Positions 1 to 9,291 of a stretch of DNA of 64,000 nt are shown here, piece by piece (positions within the stretch are counted from its first letter, which is position 1; every line of letters starts with the position of its first letter). A program made the translations under genes and the position numbers. Origin of the DNA: Bacteriovoracaceae bacterium (GTDB taxonomy: Bacteria; Bdellovibrionota; Bacteriovoracia; Bacteriovoracales; Bacteriovoracaceae); assembly GCA_947377285.1 (NCBI GenBank), contig CANCFT010000004.1:62001-126000 (forward strand), read 5' to 3'. The notes beneath the pieces were generated by a model. That model had not been told where the DNA came from. It did not search any database and saw only the letters and a program-made list of their open reading frames with translations.

Positions 1-102
1 TTTAAAAACAAAAAAAGACGTATCAGATTTCTTAAATCCTTCAATAAAATCTCTACCGTATTTTTGATAAAAAAGATCTAAGTCAACACATGGACCTATC
101 AT
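1..102 (-). CDS. Partial hypothetical protein, N-terminal 34 residues
   Basis: Seen: an open frame starts with ATG at 102 and runs off the left edge, giving 34 residues beginning MIGPCVDLDLF. Its start overlaps the TGA stop (99-101) of the upstream PEP-synthase-like gene in an ATGA arrangement. A purine-rich GGTGAG lies just before it, inside the last codons of that gene. This is the classic layout for translational coupling, so the gene is probably the fourth member of the cluster transcribed leftwards from 5174. Too little sequence remains to name a family. Confidence 0.6.
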   Translation of the reverse strand, partial: MIGPCVDLDLFYQKYGRDFIEGFKKSDTSFFVFK

Positions 103-2843
103 AGATTCTCACCCAATGCTGGTTTTAAAATAAGTAATCCTTTAGTAGCATTTAACTCGACTGTCATTCCTGATTTAATTTTTGAAACAGGGGAACCATT
201 TAATCCTACAATCGTCGGAAGTCCCATTTCTCTAGCAACAACTGCTGAATGCGATAACAATGAACCACGCTCAATTGCAAGCCCCTTGCAGTTTGGATAT
301 AAAGGAACCCATCCTGGATCTGTTCGGTAGGCCAAAAGAATTTCTCCATCAATCATCTTGGCATCCTGAATATTCTTAGCGACCAAAACAACTCCATTAA
401 CTATTCCTGGAGAACAAGAAATCCCTTGAAAAACATTAGGGTCTAATTGAACAAATTTATCTTTTAATAAGTCCAGAGAACTTAAAAGTTGAGGATATCT
501 AAATGTAGCGGTTGCGGCCCCGACTGTAATAAATCTTTCAGGTGGGTCAGATTTTTTTAAATTTTCTTCATACTCAGTCTTTCTAATTAAGGCCAGCGCG
601 CGAAGATTATTTGTAACTGAAACACCATGAATATAATCAAAAATTTCTTCAACTGTTAAAAAGAAAATATCGCGAGGATGATCAATAATGTCTAATTGAA
701 AAAATTTGTCACCAATTACACGAAAAATTCTGCGACTTGTTCCATAAGAACGGGTCCTAGCAAAGCGCAAATTCTCTCTATTTCGAACAGCTTTTCTTGC
801 ATGTTTTAATACCCATTTAAAAAGGCTTTTTTTAAGTCCAAATAAATGAGAATCAACTATTGTCTCAGCATTTTTACGTATCAAGACTTCATTGGCTTCC
901 ATCTCAGGAACTGAATATTTTTTATTTTTCAAATAACCAAGAAAACTAGAAACGGCCATTGTAGGATCTTCATGTAAATCCTTTTCTTCTAATTTCTGTT
1001 CATTTGAACAACGAAATCCAAAATCATTTATATAACGCTGAAATCGTGAATAGAGTTCTGGGAATTGTTTATTTTCCCAAATTATTTCCATAACAGCTTC
1101 GACGGATAAAGTCGTAAAATACTTAGCATCATTGGCATAAATACGGTCAAACCATTCGGCCATAATCATAAGATCTTTAGTTGGGCGAGTGGAAATAATG
1201 TCTCCTTCACCACATAGAAGATCATTTTGTATTTCGCTTTGTCCTTCTGTATTCAAAATCCATTTGGAGGTAAGTTTTCTCAACGTTCCAAAAAAGATCA
1301 TTACTAAAAAATCATTTATAATTGGTGCTTTCCATTCTAAGAGAATCTTTTTTTCAATATTTTTGTAAAGAAAATAAATGGACTGCAAAGACATCTCTTC
1401 TAATTTCATTTGATCTAATTCATCATAAGTTGATTGATGAAGATCCATGAATTTTTTAACTGTTTTATCAACAATAATAAATTGATATAATAATTTTGAA
1501 TTCATTTTAAGTTTAGTAGCAAAGGAATAGCGAGGGGCGGTGGATTCGATATCAAAATGCTTTTTCTTGTTTACGTCTATATTGTCTTTTACTCCAAGCA
1601 TCGTTTCCATAAAGCCTTTAGAAGTAGAGCTTCCAGGCATTAAAAACAATACACGGTACCAATTGAGAAGATTATAATAAACTCTACCGTTAATCTGACC
1701 CAACATATGGGCAAATGCATGTTGGTGATTATCTAGGACGTCTTGTGGCACTCCAGCGAGGTCACAACAAATGCGGTAAACGGTATCATAGCCTTTTTTG
1801 GCATAACTAAATGTTAGTGGTGTTGTGACTCCACTAAAGCTTTCAACAATATTGGAATTATCCCAAAGAATGGGAATATCGCCCATTAACAATTCGTTAA
1901 AAATATTTTCATTAGGTAAAACAGTTATAGGTCGCATTTGTAAAATATAAAGCTTACCTTTTTCAAGGGCCCACTCAATATCAATAGGCATCTTAAAATG
2001 CGTACACAATTTTTGAGTAATTTTAGCTAACTCGATGACTAAATAATCTTCAAGTGAGAATTGAGACCGCAAATCTTTTTCAATATCGACTTCAACTAGT
2101 CCTCCTCCGCTGTCCATTGCTAATTTTTTATCTTTAGGGCCGCATTGCTTTTTTGAAATTGAAAAAGTTAGTTTATTAATTAAAAATTGGTCTGCATCAT
2201 AAAGACCTCCAACCAATCCTTCACCTTGTCCAAAAACTGACTCAATGATTATATTCGAGCGGTCACTTAAATCAATTGGGTTATGAGAAAAACCAACCCC
2301 AGCAGAATCACTATTGATCATTTGCTGAATAACAACTGACATTTTAATGGACTTAGAGCTTAATCCATTCATCCTTCTATAGTTTAAAACCCTCTCACTA
2401 AAGGCCGATTGAAAACATTCCTTTAAACATTTTTCAATATTTTTTTCACCTTTTTGAAATAAGAAACTTAAAAACTGTCCAGCAAATGAATGAGTTTTAG
2501 AATCTTCATCATGCCCGGAAGATCGGATGGCAAGGAAAGACTGATCCATCTTCATGGTTTGTAAGCTTTGCTTGATAAGTAAAACCTGCTCTTCTTTGAA
2601 ATTACTTTTGGCGATAAATTCATTAATTTCTTTTTCTTTCAGAATTAAATCGTCCTCTTCTGAAATGACAAAGACGCTGTTTTCTAAATCAAAGCAAGAA
2701 CTAAAAAAATCATTGGTTAACACAAAAAAAGGAGGAACATTAACTTGCGAATCCATTAAGCGTTTTAACCCAACGGCTTTTCCACCACCAAATTCAATAA
2801 ATTGTTCGAGTTCATCACTTGGAAAAAGAATTTTTTTATTCAT
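99..2843 (-). CDS. PEP-synthase-family phosphotransferase, rifampin-phosphotransferase-like
   Basis: Seen: 914 residues. The N-terminal PPDK/PEP-synthase ATP-grasp domain (about 1-310) has FGGGKAVGL at 18-26, a later IRSSGHDED segment and LQMRP near 305. A long middle region (about 315-790) is not conserved enough for me to name. The C-terminal swivelling PEP-utiliser domain has GSLLSHSAVVARE with the phospho-accepting His at 865. No PEP-binding TIM barrel follows, so the architecture matches rifampin phosphotransferase and phenylphosphate-synthase-type enzymes rather than true PEP synthase. Known for the family: ATP gives phospho-His, and the phosphate goes to a small acceptor. Inferred: the acceptor may be the product of the neighbouring AMP ligase and UbiA enzyme. 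The gene starts 9 bases after the UbiA gene. Substrate unknown. Confidence 0.85.
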   Translation of the reverse strand: MNKKILFPSDELEQFIEFGGGKAVGLKRLMDSQVNVPPFFVLTNDFFSSCFDLENSVFVISEEDDLILKEKEINEFIAKSNFKEEQVLLIKQSLQTMKMDQSFLAIRSSGHDEDSKTHSFAGQFLSFLFQKGEKNIEKCLKECFQSAFSERVLNYRRMNGLSSKSIKMSVVIQQMINSDSAGVGFSHNPIDLSDRSNIIIESVFGQGEGLVGGLYDADQFLINKLTFSISKKQCGPKDKKLAMDSGGGLVEVDIEKDLRSQFSLEDYLVIELAKITQKLCTHFKMPIDIEWALEKGKLYILQMRPITVLPNENIFNELLMGDIPILWDNSNIVESFSGVTTPLTFSYAKKGYDTVYRICCDLAGVPQDVLDNHQHAFAHMLGQINGRVYYNLLNWYRVLFLMPGSSTSKGFMETMLGVKDNIDVNKKKHFDIESTAPRYSFATKLKMNSKLLYQFIIVDKTVKKFMDLHQSTYDELDQMKLEEMSLQSIYFLYKNIEKKILLEWKAPIINDFLVMIFFGTLRKLTSKWILNTEGQSEIQNDLLCGEGDIISTRPTKDLMIMAEWFDRIYANDAKYFTTLSVEAVMEIIWENKQFPELYSRFQRYINDFGFRCSNEQKLEEKDLHEDPTMAVSSFLGYLKNKKYSVPEMEANEVLIRKNAETIVDSHLFGLKKSLFKWVLKHARKAVRNRENLRFARTRSYGTSRRIFRVIGDKFFQLDIIDHPRDIFFLTVEEIFDYIHGVSVTNNLRALALIRKTEYEENLKKSDPPERFITVGAATATFRYPQLLSSLDLLKDKFVQLDPNVFQGISCSPGIVNGVVLVAKNIQDAKMIDGEILLAYRTDPGWVPLYPNCKGLAIERGSLLSHSAVVAREMGLPTIVGLNGSPVSKIKSGMTVELNATKGLLILKPALGENL

Positions 2844-2852
2844 TATAGTCTC

Positions 2853-3722
2853 TTAAAATAAATTTTTTAAAGGCAATAACCAAATTATATAGAGTAAATA
2901 AATGGTTACAAAAGCCTCAGTGATTTTAAACTTCTTTGGTGCTAAATACAGAAGTGAATGGGATAAATAAACAATAATCAACGGAATTGTTAACCATAGA
3001 CCTAAATTTAAATAACTAGATAAAAATAACCCAATTGCCGTTAAAAAAGTAATCGCCAGAATAGTTTTAGACTTTCCACTAACGACTAAATAAGTTCCTA
3101 AAAGAGGAATGGCATTAGGATCTAATTTTCTTGAAATTTCATATGTAAAGAAAGTACAAAGCAAAAGAGCAGATAAGGCAAAAATTAAACTATTAAATTC
3201 ATTGGTTTGATTTATCGCCGACATGACAAACATTCCCATTGGCAAAATAATCACCTGATGAGTTATGGCATAGATAAATGGAAACTTTGATAACGACTTG
3301 CCTATGAAAAATTCTTTATACATTAAAAAAAGCCAAACAATTCCAATTAATAAACAAAGACCTGAAAAAGGCGTAAAAAAAACAAATGAAGACAAAGCTA
3401 ATAAAAACAAAATTCCTTGAACCACAAAAATCATTAAACGCATTTCACTTGTTGTAATTAGCCCTCGTGGAAGTGGTCTTTTTGGATGAGCAATTAAATC
3501 TTTTTGATAATCTTTAAGTTCATCCATAAATCGCAATTGACCTAAAAATAAAAAAAAGACTATACATGCATAGAGATAAGTAAATCTATTCATTGGTGAC
3601 TTATATAGTCCGAAAGATGTGCTTACTAAACCTGTTGTAATAATAATATTGGGAATAATTGGAAAGCGTTCATTCAAAAATATTTTCCATCGTTTTATAA
3701 TACTCATCTCGTTAGTCATCAT
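2853..3722 (-). CDS. UbiA-family prenyltransferase, integral membrane
   Basis: Seen: 289 residues with about eight hydrophobic helices. The first Asp-rich prenyl-diphosphate motif is D67-x3-D71-x3-D75, followed by the loop HPKRPLPRG, typical of UbiA enzymes. At the position of the usual second Asp motif I see EISRKLD (195-201), which is degenerate. Known: UbiA enzymes move prenyl groups onto aromatic or other acceptors in the inner membrane. It sits 3 bases downstream of an OleC-like AMP ligase and 9 bases upstream of a PEP-synthase-like phosphotransferase, so it is not in a ubiquinone or menaquinone operon. Family is secure; the acceptor is not known. 4-hydroxybenzoate polyprenyltransferase is the common automatic name, but nothing here supports it specifically. 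Confidence 0.85.
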   Translation of the reverse strand: MMTNEMSIIKRWKIFLNERFPIIPNIIITTGLVSTSFGLYKSPMNRFTYLYACIVFFLFLGQLRFMDELKDYQKDLIAHPKRPLPRGLITTSEMRLMIFVVQGILFLLALSSFVFFTPFSGLCLLIGIVWLFLMYKEFFIGKSLSKFPFIYAITHQVIILPMGMFVMSAINQTNEFNSLIFALSALLLCTFFTYEISRKLDPNAIPLLGTYLVVSGKSKTILAITFLTAIGLFLSSYLNLGLWLTIPLIIVYLSHSLLYLAPKKFKITEAFVTIYLLYIIWLLPLKNLF

Positions 3723-3725
3723 TAT

Positions 3726-5174
3726 TTAATGTCCTTTCTTTTTTACTATTTTAAAATGACTTAGAGTTTTATGGCGATCTATTCGCGACATATGCCTTCT
3801 GTCTTTAAAAATTTCTTTAACTATATTAACATGATCAATCTCTTTAAAGGTTTCCTTTAATCTTTTTGTTTGTTCATTTCTAAGTGAAGTCACAAAATGT
3901 ATATTGTTTCCAATCCGGCCAATAAATCCTTCAGAGGACTCTAAATGCATGTAAATATTTTGCTCAAGTATAAAATCTTTACCTTCTTGAAAATCTCTTC
4001 CACGGTACCAAAGATCTGAATTTTCATCTATATCAATTCGGTCCCCCATATTATGGTAGACTTCACCGTTTATTAATTTTTTATTTTTTTCATTACTAAC
4101 TAAATCATCTAAGTAATAAGAAGAAACATGGGCCCCTGCAACCCAAAGGGTTTCTTGATTTAAGGTTCTAATTTCAGGAATACTTTTTCCTAAATACAAA
4201 CAATGATAAAAATTTCTAGCTCTTGAATTTTCAATAGACTCTTTCATCGAAGAAATTGCCACTGGTTCTGCTTCGGTTGAACCATATACATGATAAAAAG
4301 ATTTTGGATTAAATTTTTTTTGAATTTCTTCCATTTGTTTCACTCCAGAAAGTGCTCCACCTACTTTTATTGTATCAAACACAAGCAGATTATTTGTTAT
4401 ACAATTTTTAAGTAATTCTAAAAAATAAGGCCCACTTGCAATTGTATCCGGAAGAAATTCAGTTGGTAGTTTATTTAGATCTCGCAAAATAGAAGGTTTC
4501 CATTTGGGAATTATTAATGATCCTTTTCCCAATGCTAAATTCATCAATGTTAAATTGGTAAAAACGGTTAGATCAAGTTTGTTTAAGTTTTGATAATTGA
4601 TATATTTACTAATGACGTTTCTTTGGTCTATTAAATATTGGTGCGTGCGGGCCACACCTTTAGACCGACCAGTCGTACCGCTCGTAAAAGTTAAAATCCC
4701 GATATGATCGGCCTCTACTGGAATAGAAAATGGTTGAATTGAACTAGTTCCATTAAGAAAATCTTCGGAAGATAAATGAAAGGGTATTTTTCTAATTGAA
4801 GCGACCTTAAAAGCAAATATTCTACCCGTAAATTTTCTTACAAAAATTTTCGGTTTTATTTTTTCTATAATATGATTTATTTCACCAACCGGCAGCCACG
4901 GTTCAACTAAAAGAACTTTAACTCCCATCGCGAGCATTGCAGTAATCACAGCAAAAAGTGCAGGCGAAGGAAGTTCAAACAATAGGGCCGCATCTCCGAT
5001 TTGAATATTCATTTCAATAAGTTTTTTCTGGGCCCTTCCAAGCTGAATACCAAATTCTCTAAAGCTTATATTTTTATTAGGATTTTTAAGGGAATCAATA
5101 TTATCAAAATAAATAATTCCTGGACGATCTTGTAATAACTTATCTTGTTCAAACAAAATATCGATACAATTCAT
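3726..5174 (-). CDS. AMP-dependent synthetase/ligase, OleC-like
   Basis: Seen: 482 residues. The adenylation-domain P-loop LTFTSGTTGRSKGV is at 161-174, YGSTEAEPV at 297-305, GDR at 377-379 and a WYRGR motif at 389-393. The C-terminal lid is short and ends in a DRHKTLSHF segment that resembles the RHN-KI-F end of OleC beta-lactone synthetases. Known: the superfamily activates carboxylates as acyl-AMP, making CoA esters or, for OleC, beta-lactones. It is the first gene of a tight minus-strand cluster with the UbiA and PEP-synthase-like genes. A terminator at 5204-5237 separates it from the gene before, so its promoter should lie within about 5175-5203. CoA ligase or lactone-type chemistry cannot be told apart here. 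Confidence 0.85.
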   Translation of the reverse strand: MNCIDILFEQDKLLQDRPGIIYFDNIDSLKNPNKNISFREFGIQLGRAQKKLIEMNIQIGDAALLFELPSPALFAVITAMLAMGVKVLLVEPWLPVGEINHIIEKIKPKIFVRKFTGRIFAFKVASIRKIPFHLSSEDFLNGTSSIQPFSIPVEADHIGILTFTSGTTGRSKGVARTHQYLIDQRNVISKYINYQNLNKLDLTVFTNLTLMNLALGKGSLIIPKWKPSILRDLNKLPTEFLPDTIASGPYFLELLKNCITNNLLVFDTIKVGGALSGVKQMEEIQKKFNPKSFYHVYGSTEAEPVAISSMKESIENSRARNFYHCLYLGKSIPEIRTLNQETLWVAGAHVSSYYLDDLVSNEKNKKLINGEVYHNMGDRIDIDENSDLWYRGRDFQEGKDFILEQNIYMHLESSEGFIGRIGNNIHFVTSLRNEQTKRLKETFKEIDHVNIVKEIFKDRRHMSRIDRHKTLSHFKIVKKKGH

Positions 5175-5257: not shown

Positions 5258-6640
5258 TTATTTAAAAAGTATTGGACTAGGAAGAGATTGAATAAATTCT
5301 CTCGGGATTTGGTGATAAACTGGACCGGCCGCTTTGTCATTCTCAGACTTAGCGATAACGTCTTTTTTTGCACCAACAATAGCATCTACAAGACTTTGAG
5401 TTCTAGAGAGTTCCGCTGCTCGAATTGCTCTATCGCGGTTAACTATTCCACTAGTTCTCACTTTTCCAGCAAGCCATGACTTAACATCAACTGTTTCTAA
5501 AATAATTTTTTTAATTTCTCTAAATCCTAATTTTGGATTTACATCTTTAATTCGTCCAGCGATATTGGCAACATAAGGAGAAGCTTGGCTTGTTCCACTA
5601 ACTGCTAAGTAATTATCCATAGGAATTGTAGAAAGAATCCCAACACCAGGGGCCGCAACATCTACATTTTTAACACCATAACAAGAAAAGTTTGCAAGAC
5701 TTTGATCCCCCAAAGTTGCCGCTACCGAAATTTTATTTTCTGCATCTACGTTTGTTGGAGACGAAGGCAATTCATCATTATTAGATCCTTCATTTCCTGC
5801 AGCAAAAACAAAAAGAGTATTTGGAGCTGCACTTAGGAATTTTTTAGTTTCTAGAAGATTCACTTCAAAAAAGTGCATTGTATAGACTTTCAACTCTTCT
5901 GCTGTTGGGTCTTTTTTGAAAAATGTTTTGTATAACTGAGTTATTAATCCAGAAATGGCAGTGTAAGAAGTTCCAAATGAACCATTCATAACATCTGCAT
6001 GAGATGAATTAATATATGATCCAATTTCAGAATAAACTTTCGTTTGTTGTTGAGCAAGAGCGGTTAAAGCTGCATTTAATAGTGCTTCTTTTACTCCTGA
6101 TTTTTCTAGATTAGTTGATTCTACAAATTTTTTCCCTGGAAGTTTGACTTCTGTCGGGATTAATTTAATACCAACTGCGCGAGCATCTGGAGAATTTTTA
6201 AGTGTTATCCCTGTCACGTGAGTTCCGTGCATCCAGTTCCCAAATAGACCAAGATTTTTAACAAAGGCTTCATCTTTAAATTTTTCTTTGGCCCAATCTC
6301 TATCGGCTTGTGTAATGGTCCCCATGAAAGATTTTAGCTGAACATCAAAAAATCTTCTGGCATCTGGAGTATTAGTATTGGCGTATGAATAATCAATTAA
6401 TGAATTATTGTTTTCTGCAAAATTCCACCCATTGATATCATCAGGGTAGCCATTTTTATCCTCATCGCGGTCATTAGAGGGAATCTCAATTGGATTGATC
6501 CAAGCTTTGCTAGCAAGATCTTTGTGAAGAAAATCATTTCCCGAATCAACAACTGCAATGATTGAAGCATTACTTGTATTGACCGAGAGGATTAATAAAA
6601 GACTTAGTAAATTGGCGGGCATAGAAAATTTTGTCATCAC
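5258..6640 (-). CDS. Secreted subtilisin-like (S8) serine protease, copy 1
   Basis: Seen: 460 residues. A signal peptide covers about 1-25, ending in NTSNA. The mature enzyme starts almost at once with the catalytic Asp32 (VVDSGND), then His138 (HGTH 138-141), oxyanion Asn283 (AAGN) and Ser351 (GTSQAS). An Asp/Asn-rich loop at 57-70 before GWNF looks like a calcium site. There is no long propeptide between signal and catalytic Asp, which is unusual for exported subtilases. A paralogue follows immediately upstream (6803-8191), so the pair arose by tandem duplication. Each gene has its own terminator, so they are likely expressed separately. Role inferred: degradation of external or prey protein. 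Confidence 0.92.
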   Translation of the reverse strand: MMTKFSMPANLLSLLLILSVNTSNASIIAVVDSGNDFLHKDLASKAWINPIEIPSNDRDEDKNGYPDDINGWNFAENNNSLIDYSYANTNTPDARRFFDVQLKSFMGTITQADRDWAKEKFKDEAFVKNLGLFGNWMHGTHVTGITLKNSPDARAVGIKLIPTEVKLPGKKFVESTNLEKSGVKEALLNAALTALAQQQTKVYSEIGSYINSSHADVMNGSFGTSYTAISGLITQLYKTFFKKDPTAEELKVYTMHFFEVNLLETKKFLSAAPNTLFVFAAGNEGSNNDELPSSPTNVDAENKISVAATLGDQSLANFSCYGVKNVDVAAPGVGILSTIPMDNYLAVSGTSQASPYVANIAGRIKDVNPKLGFREIKKIILETVDVKSWLAGKVRTSGIVNRDRAIRAAELSRTQSLVDAIVGAKKDVIAKSENDKAAGPVYHQIPREFIQSLPSPILFK

Positions 6641-6739
6641 TGACTCCTGGAAACCGTTTTTTAGTTATCACTAAATTATCACGCTCTTAGCGCTGGCCGG
6701 TCTATAGGTTAATTCTGACTAAAACTTACTGGAGTCAAA

Positions 6740-6767
6740 AAAAAGGCACCCCGAAGGATGCCTTTTT
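6740..6767 (-). terminator. Bidirectional-looking terminator after the second subtilase gene
   Basis: Hairpin AAAAAGGCA-C-CC, loop CGAA, GG-A-TGCCTTTTT with one C-A mismatch, flanked by A- and T-runs. It lies between the two tandem protease genes and ends the transcript of the 6803-8191 gene. Confidence 0.85.
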
Positions 6768-6802
6768 AAAATCTCTTTAAGCTTGGGTGCAAAAAGAAAT
6801 AA

Positions 6803-8191
6803 TTAGAATCTTGGAATTAATAAACTTGGTCTGATTGGCTTGAAATTAATTTTCACACCTTGAAGCTTCACAGAAAGAGACTTTTCAACAGCTACATCAG
6901 CAACTGTCGCCACTGATTTTGCAATTGCTAAATCGATTGCTTGAGTTTTTGCAAACTCAGCTGCTTTTAACGCGCGAGCTTTATTAACGATCCCTGAAGT
7001 TTTCACTTTTCCTTTAAGCCATACTTTTACATCAACTGTTCCAAGAACGATTGCTTTTAAGTCACGCGCTGTTAAGGCCGGGTTAAGGTCTTTCATGGCA
7101 GCGATGATATTTGTTACATAAGGAGTTGCTTGGCTCGTCCCACTCAATGCAATATAAACATTAGTTGGTGCTGTAGAAGTGATTGCTACTCCAGGAGCTG
7201 CAACATCAACTTTCGTTGCTCCATAGTTTGAAAAATCTGCAAGGGATTTATAACCCAATGTCGCTGCTACAACAATTTTGTTTTCAGCTTGAATATCAGC
7301 TGGGTAATCTGGATATAAATCATTATTAGAAGAATCGTTACCTGCAGCTATCGTAAAAAGAGTATTCGGAGCTGCTGCGAACATTTGAGGACCTTCAAGA
7401 AATATTTGGTTAAAATAAGCTTTTAATAAACCTGATAATTCATCAGCTGTTGGCTCTCTTTTAAGGGCATCAACAAACCCAGCTTTAATAAAATTAGTTG
7501 CGTCGCCAAAACCAATTCCAAATGATTGGTTAACTACATCAACTTTATGAAAATTAACATAACCGTGAAGAGAGATCATTTGGTCTATTTGTTGAGTCGC
7601 ACTTGTCACAACTTCAGATTTATATTCTTCTAAAGTTTTAGTCGGAAGTTCGGCCGGTGCTACTTTCGGTAAAGTCTTAGGAGCATTTGGGTCTGTTGGA
7701 GCAATTTCTTGATAAACAGTTGGGATAATTTTCATTGAAAGAATTTTAGCTTGAGTATTATTTAAAGCAGAAATTCCAGCAACGTGTGTTCCGTGGATAT
7801 AACCACCAACAAAGTTAACTTTATTCATTAAAGAAGCATCTTGCGAGTGAGTTTTAAGCCAAGTTAATTCTGGAGAAACTTGAGTTAATTTACCTAGTTC
7901 ATACATACTATAGTAGTTAAAAAATGTTTTAACATCTGTATTGATTAGGCTTATATAATTGTCATTAAAAACTTTTGCTGAATTTTCAATGAAGTCCCAA
8001 CCGTTAACATCTCCAGGAAGCCCATCATTATCTAAGTCAACTGTACTTCCAACTTTTTCATTTTTATTAAACCAAGCTTTAGAGACTAAATCTTTATGAG
8101 AGATATCTGTTCCAGAGTCCATGATTCCAACTAAAGAAGCGCTGGCATTGGTTAGTTGTACAAGTGTTATAAAAGAGATTAAAATTTTCAC
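6803..8191 (-). CDS. Secreted subtilisin-like (S8) serine protease, copy 2
   Basis: Seen: 462 residues. The signal peptide ends around residue 18 (NASA). The catalytic triad is Asp25 (IMDSGTD), His133 (HGTH) and Ser353 (GTSQAT), with the AAGN oxyanion Asn at about 284. It aligns along its whole length with the 5258-6640 protein, sharing motifs such as LVSKAWFN versus LASKAWIN and the DDINGW/DVNGWDF loop. It also has a Pro-rich insertion near 164-184 (DPNAPKTLP region) that copy 1 lacks. As in copy 1 there is no propeptide before the catalytic Asp. The gene is flanked by its own terminator. Secretion beyond the inner membrane is inferred from the signal peptide. Confidence 0.92.
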   Translation of the reverse strand: MKILISFITLVQLTNASASLVGIMDSGTDISHKDLVSKAWFNKNEKVGSTVDLDNDGLPGDVNGWDFIENSAKVFNDNYISLINTDVKTFFNYYSMYELGKLTQVSPELTWLKTHSQDASLMNKVNFVGGYIHGTHVAGISALNNTQAKILSMKIIPTVYQEIAPTDPNAPKTLPKVAPAELPTKTLEEYKSEVVTSATQQIDQMISLHGYVNFHKVDVVNQSFGIGFGDATNFIKAGFVDALKREPTADELSGLLKAYFNQIFLEGPQMFAAAPNTLFTIAAGNDSSNNDLYPDYPADIQAENKIVVAATLGYKSLADFSNYGATKVDVAAPGVAITSTAPTNVYIALSGTSQATPYVTNIIAAMKDLNPALTARDLKAIVLGTVDVKVWLKGKVKTSGIVNKARALKAAEFAKTQAIDLAIAKSVATVADVAVEKSLSVKLQGVKINFKPIRPSLLIPRF

Positions 8192-8328: not shown

Positions 8329-9291
8329 ATGAAAAAACGAGTCTATATTACACGCTCAATCCTATCAGATGGCGTCCAGTTAATGCGAGATCAAGGGCTT
8401 GAAGTAGTCATTAATGACCAAGATCTTCCCTTACCTTATAGTGAACTTTTAACACGGGTCCAAGGTTTTGATGCCCTCATCACAATGTTAAGTGATAAAA
8501 TTGATGAATCCTTTCTCAAGGCCTGTCCTCAACTAAAAGTTATTTCTAACTATGCTGTGGGATATAATAATATCGACACAAACGCCGCTACTCTCCTCGG
8601 AATTCCAGTTGGAAATACCCCAGATGTCTTAACTGAAGCTACTGCTGAAGTGGCCCTGGGACTAATGATCGCGGCTTCTAGAAATTTTTTATCGGCCAAT
8701 AAAAGTGCATCAGATGGTGCCTGGAAAAATTGGGATCCAACGGGCCATTTGGGGCATGCTTTAAAGGGGAAAACTTTAGGAGTCATTGGCCTTGGTCGCA
8801 TCGGCCAGCGATTGGCCCAAATGTGTGCTCATGCTTTCTCAATGAAGATCCAATATTACTCACAAAGTATTAAAGAAAATACTTTTGGAGCAATAAGATT
8901 AGATTTAAACAGTCTTCTTAAAGAAAGTGACTTTGTCTCAATCCATTTGCCACTAAATAATCAAACGAAAAAATTAATTGGCTTAAAAGAGATATCAATG
9001 ATGAAAAGATCAGCGGTACTTATTAATACGGCAAGAGGAGAAATTATCGATCAAGATGATTTAGTGACGGCCTTAAAAAATAATCTCATATTTGCAGCAG
9101 GCCTTGATGTGACCGACCCTGAACCGTTACCGATAGAACATGAACTTTTTGCCTGTCAAAATGCGTTTATACTTCCTCATATTGGCTCGGCCACTTATGA
9201 GGCAAGAAGAGATATGTCGATTTTAGTTGCCAAAAATATAATTGCTGGTCTTAAAGGAGAGCGGTTAATAGCTCAGGTGAACATGTTATAA
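8329..9291 (+). CDS. D-isomer-specific 2-hydroxyacid dehydrogenase (glyoxylate/hydroxypyruvate reductase type)
   Basis: Seen: 320 residues with the full family signature. NAD(P)-binding GLGRIG is at 154-159, and the catalytic residues are Arg236 (NTARGE), Glu265 (DPEP) and His284 (LPHIGS). The N-terminal substrate-domain motif NYAVGYNNID is at 74-83. Known: these cytosolic enzymes reduce glyoxylate, hydroxypyruvate or 2-ketogluconate to the D-2-hydroxyacid. The sequence resembles the GhrB/GRHPR group more than SerA or LdhA, but exact substrate is not decided by sequence. The start has AAGGA upstream. The gene stands alone between divergent and convergent neighbours and is followed by terminator hairpins at 9294-9352. 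Confidence 0.9.
   Translation: MKKRVYITRSILSDGVQLMRDQGLEVVINDQDLPLPYSELLTRVQGFDALITMLSDKIDESFLKACPQLKVISNYAVGYNNIDTNAATLLGIPVGNTPDVLTEATAEVALGLMIAASRNFLSANKSASDGAWKNWDPTGHLGHALKGKTLGVIGLGRIGQRLAQMCAHAFSMKIQYYSQSIKENTFGAIRLDLNSLLKESDFVSIHLPLNNQTKKLIGLKEISMMKRSAVLINTARGEIIDQDDLVTALKNNLIFAAGLDVTDPEPLPIEHELFACQNAFILPHIGSATYEARRDMSILVAKNIIAGLKGERLIAQVNML

Follow-up and report, generated by a model that had tools for sequence, protein, structure and literature searches.

The window analysed here is a stretch of 64,000 nucleotides from a Bacteriovoracaceae genome, comprising bases 62001–126000 of a 154-kb contig. A check of its open reading frames (ORFs) shows three genes in tight succession on the minus strand, 3 and 9 bases apart, which encode an AMP-forming acid ligase (AMP-ligase), a UbiA-family protein and an RPH-like phosphohistidine dikinase (Table 1). 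The dikinase gene ends in ...AATCTATGATAGG, its TGA stop codon overlapping the ATG start codon of a fourth gene. An earlier note on this DNA had described the three ORFs, their spacing and the ATGA overlap; all are found just where it placed them, and the fourth gene can now be identified as that of a GNAT acyltransferase. Its enzyme types also stand, as the three proteins match AMP-binding (1.8e-23), UbiA (1.7e-12) and PPDK_N (1.3e-69) together with PEP-utilizers (1.7e-17), respectively. On the other side of the trio are two tandem secreted subtilase genes (5258–8191), both with a GTG start; with a 2-hydroxyacid dehydrogenase gene (8329–9291), they constitute a syntenic flank in genomes of the same genus and in several other members of the family.

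Table 1. Features of the cluster and its flank (window positions, or locus L006 positions where so marked; ORF starts were set mechanically)
Feature	Position	Strand	Remark
AMP-forming acid ligase, 482 aa	3726..5174	-	at the head of the run; PRK09274/OleC-like
UbiA-family intramembrane transferase, 289 aa	2853..3722	-	divergent subfamily
RPH-like phosphohistidine dikinase, 914 aa	99..2843	-	ATP-grasp, middle and His swivel domains
GNAT acyltransferase start (fourth gene)	1..102	-	overlaps the dikinase gene by ATGA
Secreted subtilase (S8), upstream neighbour of the trio	5258..6640	-	outside the pathway; marker of the conserved chromosomal site
GNAT acyltransferase, 322 aa	L006:17134-18102		cut by the window edge
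687-aa reductase	L006:11610-13673
DUF3419 (BtaA-like) protein	L006:10520-11608		101.4 bits against a cut-off of 28.2

The cluster was followed past the window edge on the contig, where the trio is succeeded by genes for the GNAT, a P450, a DAGK/YegS-type lipid kinase, an SDR of the fatty acyl/thioester reductase type, a 687-aa acyl-ACP reductase and the BtaA-like DUF3419 protein. The cluster is larger than the earlier note could see: these additional genes lie outside the window and were missed by it. Promoter and terminator scans of the cluster gave overall no signal above chance; a terminator-like site between the P450 and kinase genes would make two transcripts. After the DUF3419 gene comes a nitroreductase gene (L006:9770-10480), which is also present in L080 (75% identity) but absent in L087 and L091.

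The dikinase consists of an ATP-grasp domain (about residues 20–312), a family-specific middle domain and a C-terminal swivel domain carrying His865, with the PEP-utilizers match at residues 832–902 of 914. Its AlphaFold model (pLDDT 90.7) has as its best Foldseek match RPH (5hv1), over the full length (E 4e-43, TM 0.62/0.66), and the label "RPH-like" in the earlier note is correct for this architecture. In RPH, Lys22, Arg117, Arg666, Glu667 and His825 have been found essential by mutagenesis (PMC4844700), and none of their counterparts, K22, R107, R689, E690 and H865, varies among 55 homologs drawn from many phyla, so that the dikinase very probably makes phosphohistidine from ATP and hands the phosphate to a substrate in the middle domain. 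The middle domain has invariant residues of its own, including D328, N329, E334, W395, W504, N510 and D511, and the substrate should therefore be common to the whole family rather than rifampin. Identity as a phosphoenolpyruvate synthase was rejected: the His domain is C-terminal, the pyruvate barrel does not follow it, and the PRK06241/PEP_synth models all score under their cut-offs. In a Parcubacteria metagenome-assembled genome (MAG; L126:9221-12594), two separate ORFs encode the N- and C-terminal parts of the dikinase, and the UbiA gene lies between them.

The UbiA protein belongs to its superfamily by score (about 47.6–47.8 bits with the Pfam model against a cut-off of 34.2) and by its Asp-rich motif with the RPLxxG downstream of it, where D67, D71, D75 and R82 are invariant. 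An alignment of 19 sequences gives the invariant residues as D67-E68-x-K70-D71-x3-D75 ... R82 and E195-x2-R198-K199 ... Y211. The second Asp-rich DxxxD motif is absent and its place is taken by the invariant E195-x2-R198-K199, which suggests that something other than a prenyl diphosphate may be the donor. The closest solved structure is that of DGGGP synthase (6m31, E 4.4e-8), an enzyme that forms an ether bond. Among the three UbiA proteins of this genome, that of the cluster is the third and most divergent; the other two, which fit the family model better (159.5 and 111.7 bits), are presumably the housekeeping ones, and a housekeeping quinone or heme role for the cluster UbiA was rejected on this ground.

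Adenylation residues are conserved among 76 cluster AMP-ligases, and in ten of the annotated loci AMP-ligase and UbiA form a single ORF. As for the 687-aa protein, its second half is a reductase of the acyl-ACP/PigE type (4ppm, 2.7e-22) with the fold of acyl-ACP reductase (Foldseek 6jzy, E 2e-19, TM 0.78 by target). C561 and C611 are invariant in 26 reductase sequences; C611 aligns with a Cys of PigE and is probably the catalytic one. The first 310 residues matched no solved fold, and the N-terminal half has stand-alone paralogs in five relatives. DUF3419 is a domain of BtaA, the first enzyme of betaine-lipid synthesis (PMC6642084); no solved relative of it was found. Over the loci as a whole the companions are lipid enzymes (BtaA-like, YegS/DAGK kinase, CDP-OH_P, CarS-like, PS decarboxylase), and lipid-type exporters recur, either MMPL or ABC/MacB with a LolA-like protein. 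Such companions, modules and exporters point to a polar lipid as the product. At L055:6607-11155, PS decarboxylase, DUF3419 and a dikinase homolog follow one another on the same strand, a row that suggests a decarboxylated homoserine head group. Three distant versions (L056, L154 and L156) contain UbiA, dikinase, P450, a CarS-like protein and a 970-aa fusion of aminotransferase and acyl-ACP reductase, which would yield a fatty amine rather than an alcohol.

How widely is this gene set conserved? A scan of 84,980 species genomes was performed with the UbiA alignment alone as the query, so that the dikinase could not bias the adjacency result; used as the sole query, the 914-aa protein gave no matches, whereas the divergent UbiA alignment succeeded. 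Of 64 loci that have 1.5 kb or more of sequence on either side, 62 carry an RPH-like gene within 3 kb of UbiA, which is well beyond chance. The loci come from Bdellovibrionota, Gammaproteobacteria, Bacteroidota, Gemmatimonadota, Chloroflexota, Lentisphaerota and others. Isolates with the cluster include Photorhabdus, Pontibacter, Pedobacter, Halobacteriovorax marinus, Bacteriovorax sp. BSW11_IV and a complete Lentisphaerae chromosome; MAGs, which may be mis-binned but with which the isolates agree, add Gemmatimonadota, Chloroflexota (Caldilineaceae), Nitrospirota, Acetothermia, WOR-3 and Parcubacteria. The gene order, for which the earlier note had proposed a search, is thus kept across phyla and extends far outside close relatives. 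Distribution within groups is uneven: the cluster UbiA is present in 118 of 291 Bdellovibrionota genomes (roughly 40%; 52 of 162 genera), and the family of the Pontibacter locus has the cluster in a patchy fashion (11 of 81 sampled genomes). Of the 291 Bdellovibrionota genomes, 105 encode DUF3419 and 87 the 687-aa reductase; 96 have both UbiA and DUF3419 (p 6e-44), and 85 of the 87 reductase-bearing genomes have UbiA (p 5e-43), both significances being inflated by kinship. This pattern of co-occurrence is seen in many Bdellovibrionota genera.

HMM annotation of 101 loci revealed a constant core with alternative modules around it. In the 68 loci of at least 15 kb, related genomes included, the following alternatives never occur together: GNAT (48) and formyltransferase-like protein (16), DUF3419 (41) and CDP-alcohol transferase/CarS-like protein (13), acyl-ACP reductase (26) and HMG-CoA reductase (13), and DAGK-type kinase (27) and phytol-kinase-like/APH kinase (20); since 11 Photorhabdus loci supply most of the HMG-CoA reductase and CarS counts, only the contrast of GNAT with formyltransferase is broad. 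Another 20 Bdellovibrionota loci are consistent with this scheme. L108 and L110 have UbiA and the dikinase but no AMP-ligase, DUF3419 or kinase of any sort within 20 kb, which reduces the minimal set to UbiA plus dikinase and means that the reaction order proposed below cannot be universal. A possibility is that HMG-CoA reductase simply substitutes for acyl-ACP reductase. However, HMG-CoA reductase is encoded elsewhere in the genome in Bdellovibrionota, so its slot in the cluster may stand for a supply of mevalonate and not for a counterpart of acyl-ACP reductase. In the cluster enzyme, the positions that we take to be HMG-contacting are partly altered and some are retained. In a Photorhabdus cluster (L106:10879-13467), HMG-CoA reductase and an APH-type kinase form one fused protein, which contains the sole HMG-CoA reductase found in that genome.

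Within the genus, the cluster occupies one site in seven genomes, flanked by the subtilase/2-hydroxyacid dehydrogenase genes at one end and by the kinase-SDR-reductase-DUF3419 genes at the other. Between L038 and L042, all six flanking genes are 80–90% identical, whereas AMP-ligase, UbiA and dikinase are 36–38% identical; between L040 and L043, the dikinase is 76% identical and AMP-ligase and UbiA are 25–26% identical. The genus groups together in the reductase tree (100/99), while the dikinase tree places this genome and G001 outside all other members of the genus and family (100/100), and the UbiA tree gives a third pattern unlike either, some of these branches being long. The orientation of the cassette is opposite in G000 and G001. 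These sequence relationships are best read as piecewise replacement of the AMP-UbiA-RPH cassette by recombination at a fixed site, and such swapping inside one genus suggests diversifying selection on the product.

Taken together, cross-phyla conservation, gene fusions, co-occurrence and lipid-enzyme companions lead us to regard the trio as the core of a modular pathway that makes an unusual polar lipid, probably of the ether type and located in the membrane or outer membrane, with a probability of roughly 0.55. The same four lines of evidence support the reading of the earlier note in part: its idea of one pathway to a novel membrane lipid is well backed, whereas the product itself, a prenyl donor for UbiA and a phosphate on the final compound are putative. 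The substrates, the order of steps and the product outlined here are a proposal; what the sequences show is the genes present, their conservation and co-occurrence, the folds and the intact catalytic residues. The 687-aa reductase would convert acyl-ACP to a fatty aldehyde, which the SDR would reduce to an alcohol and the DAGK-type kinase would phosphorylate, and the AMP-ligase would activate a carboxylic acid for acylation. The dikinase would transfer the β-phosphate of ATP to His865 and, after a swivel of this domain, to a lipid intermediate bound in the middle domain, where a hydroxyl or a phosphate would accept it. UbiA would need this phosphorylated partner to join the two hydrophobic parts in the membrane. 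The BtaA-like DUF3419 enzyme might then supply an aminocarboxypropyl (homoserine) head group from SAM, as BtaA does for a diacylglycerol-type hydroxyl, with the GNAT acylating an amine and the P450 hydroxylating a chain. In other versions, a CarS-like protein with CDP-alcohol transferase would carry out the head-group step, a formyltransferase-like protein would act instead of the GNAT, and MMPL or MacB/LolA-type systems would be responsible for export.

Other pathways could bring some of these enzymes together. An unlikely one is a prodiginine-like condensation, in which the dikinase would act like PigC, driven by ATP, and join the aldehyde from the PigE/AAR-like reductase to a second unit to give an alkylated small molecule or pigment. 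The PigC model does span the whole dikinase in one stretch (303 bits) and the reductase does resemble the N-terminal part of PigE (151.6 bits), but the cut-offs are far higher (1300 and 850), annotation of the loci recognised no genes forming pyrrole or bipyrrole, and what accompanies the trio are enzymes for lipid head groups. Synthesis of archaeal-style isoprenoid ether lipids, in which UbiA would be the DGGGP synthase and CarS-like, CDP-alcohol transferase and PS decarboxylase-like enzymes would act after it, would agree with the closest solved structure of UbiA and with the occurrence of these later enzymes in some versions of the cluster. It is nevertheless improbable: GGGP synthase (PF01884) is found in none of 18 genomes (this one and 17 relatives; control positive), which makes plain archaeal lipids unlikely and was the ground for rejecting them, a motif screen of 1666 ORFs in the loci showed no polyprenyl synthase, and the version in the window has none of CarS, CDP-OH_P and PSD. 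We give equally little credence to a prenylated aromatic or quinone-type metabolite, for which the ligase would activate an aromatic acid, UbiA prenylate it and the dikinase phosphorylate it. Membership of the UbiA family speaks for this, and an AMP-ligase beside UbiA would suit aromatic prenylation; against it stand the far better family scores of the two other UbiA proteins and its misfit with acyl-ACP reductase, the BtaA-like enzyme and lipid exporters. An Ole-type olefin or β-lactone pathway, with the AMP-ligase as a β-lactone-forming OleC and the SDR in the role of OleD, is very doubtful and was rejected on scores: OleC and OleD are among the matches, but at 52–54 bits against cut-offs of 850–900 and at 45–53 bits against 580, so that the "OleC-like" of the earlier note holds for similarity and not for membership; UbiA, the dikinase and DUF3419 would be left unexplained, and the neighbours of the trio are assigned to other families. 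Antibiotic inactivation by the 914-aa protein as a rifampin phosphotransferase with incidental neighbours is scarcely credible and was rejected on score and context, as the best fold match and retained catalytic residues are outweighed by a family score of 252.5 bits against the NCBIfam cut-off of 999, a near-obligate pairing with UbiA across phyla and a middle domain with its own invariant residues.

The preferred reading, a modular polar-lipid pathway, implies that bacteria bearing the cluster probably make a membrane lipid that nobody has identified so far. More tentatively, it is plausible that UbiA and a dedicated dikinase produce an undescribed lipid class with interchangeable modules in at least seven phyla, and that predators of the Bacteriovoracaceae type swap the core cassette at a fixed site, in the manner of surface-polysaccharide loci, to diversify their envelope chemistry; diversifying selection on the product would matter for how predator and prey, or cell and phage, interact. 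Some nine genes in a conserved pathway appear to make a lipid without prior assignment, which gives a biosynthetic context to the orphan DUF3419/BtaA-like, AAR-like and RPH-like proteins and a likely non-quinone role to UbiA enzymes. The earlier note knew of no described pathway with this trio, and in the open-licence literature we likewise found no description of the cluster; the UbiA neighbourhood in the lipocone paper is not the same as the present one.

Several known systems share features with the cluster and differ from it in others. We know of no counterpart to the pairing of UbiA with a dedicated phosphohistidine dikinase. The OleC/PRK09274 ligases are similar to the cluster AMP-ligase in sequence, but scores are far under the curated cut-offs and general annotation of the neighbouring genes recognised no OleA or OleB beside the trio. 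PigC and the N-terminal reductase of PigE match the dikinase over its full length and the reductase half, respectively, but with similarly low scores, no recognised prodiginine genes and lipid companions in the cluster. The archaeal phospholipid pathway shares DGGGP synthase as the nearest structure to UbiA and, in some versions, the CarS-like, CDP-alcohol transferase and PSD steps, whereas the cluster lacks GGGP synthase, has a changed second Asp motif and includes a bacterial acyl-ACP reductase and a ligase. BtaA of the DGTS/betaine pathway has its relative in the DUF3419 protein inside the cluster, mostly in the same genomes, but the BtaA/BtaB pathway works without UbiA, dikinase, ligase or acyl-ACP reductase. 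RPH-Lm (PDB 5fbs, 5hv1; PMC4844700) has the same three-part architecture as the cluster dikinase, with N-terminal ATP-grasp, C-terminal His swivel and five matching essential residues; the cluster dikinase differs in being about 21% identical to it, under the family cut-off, endowed with middle-domain invariants of its own and almost always encoded beside UbiA.
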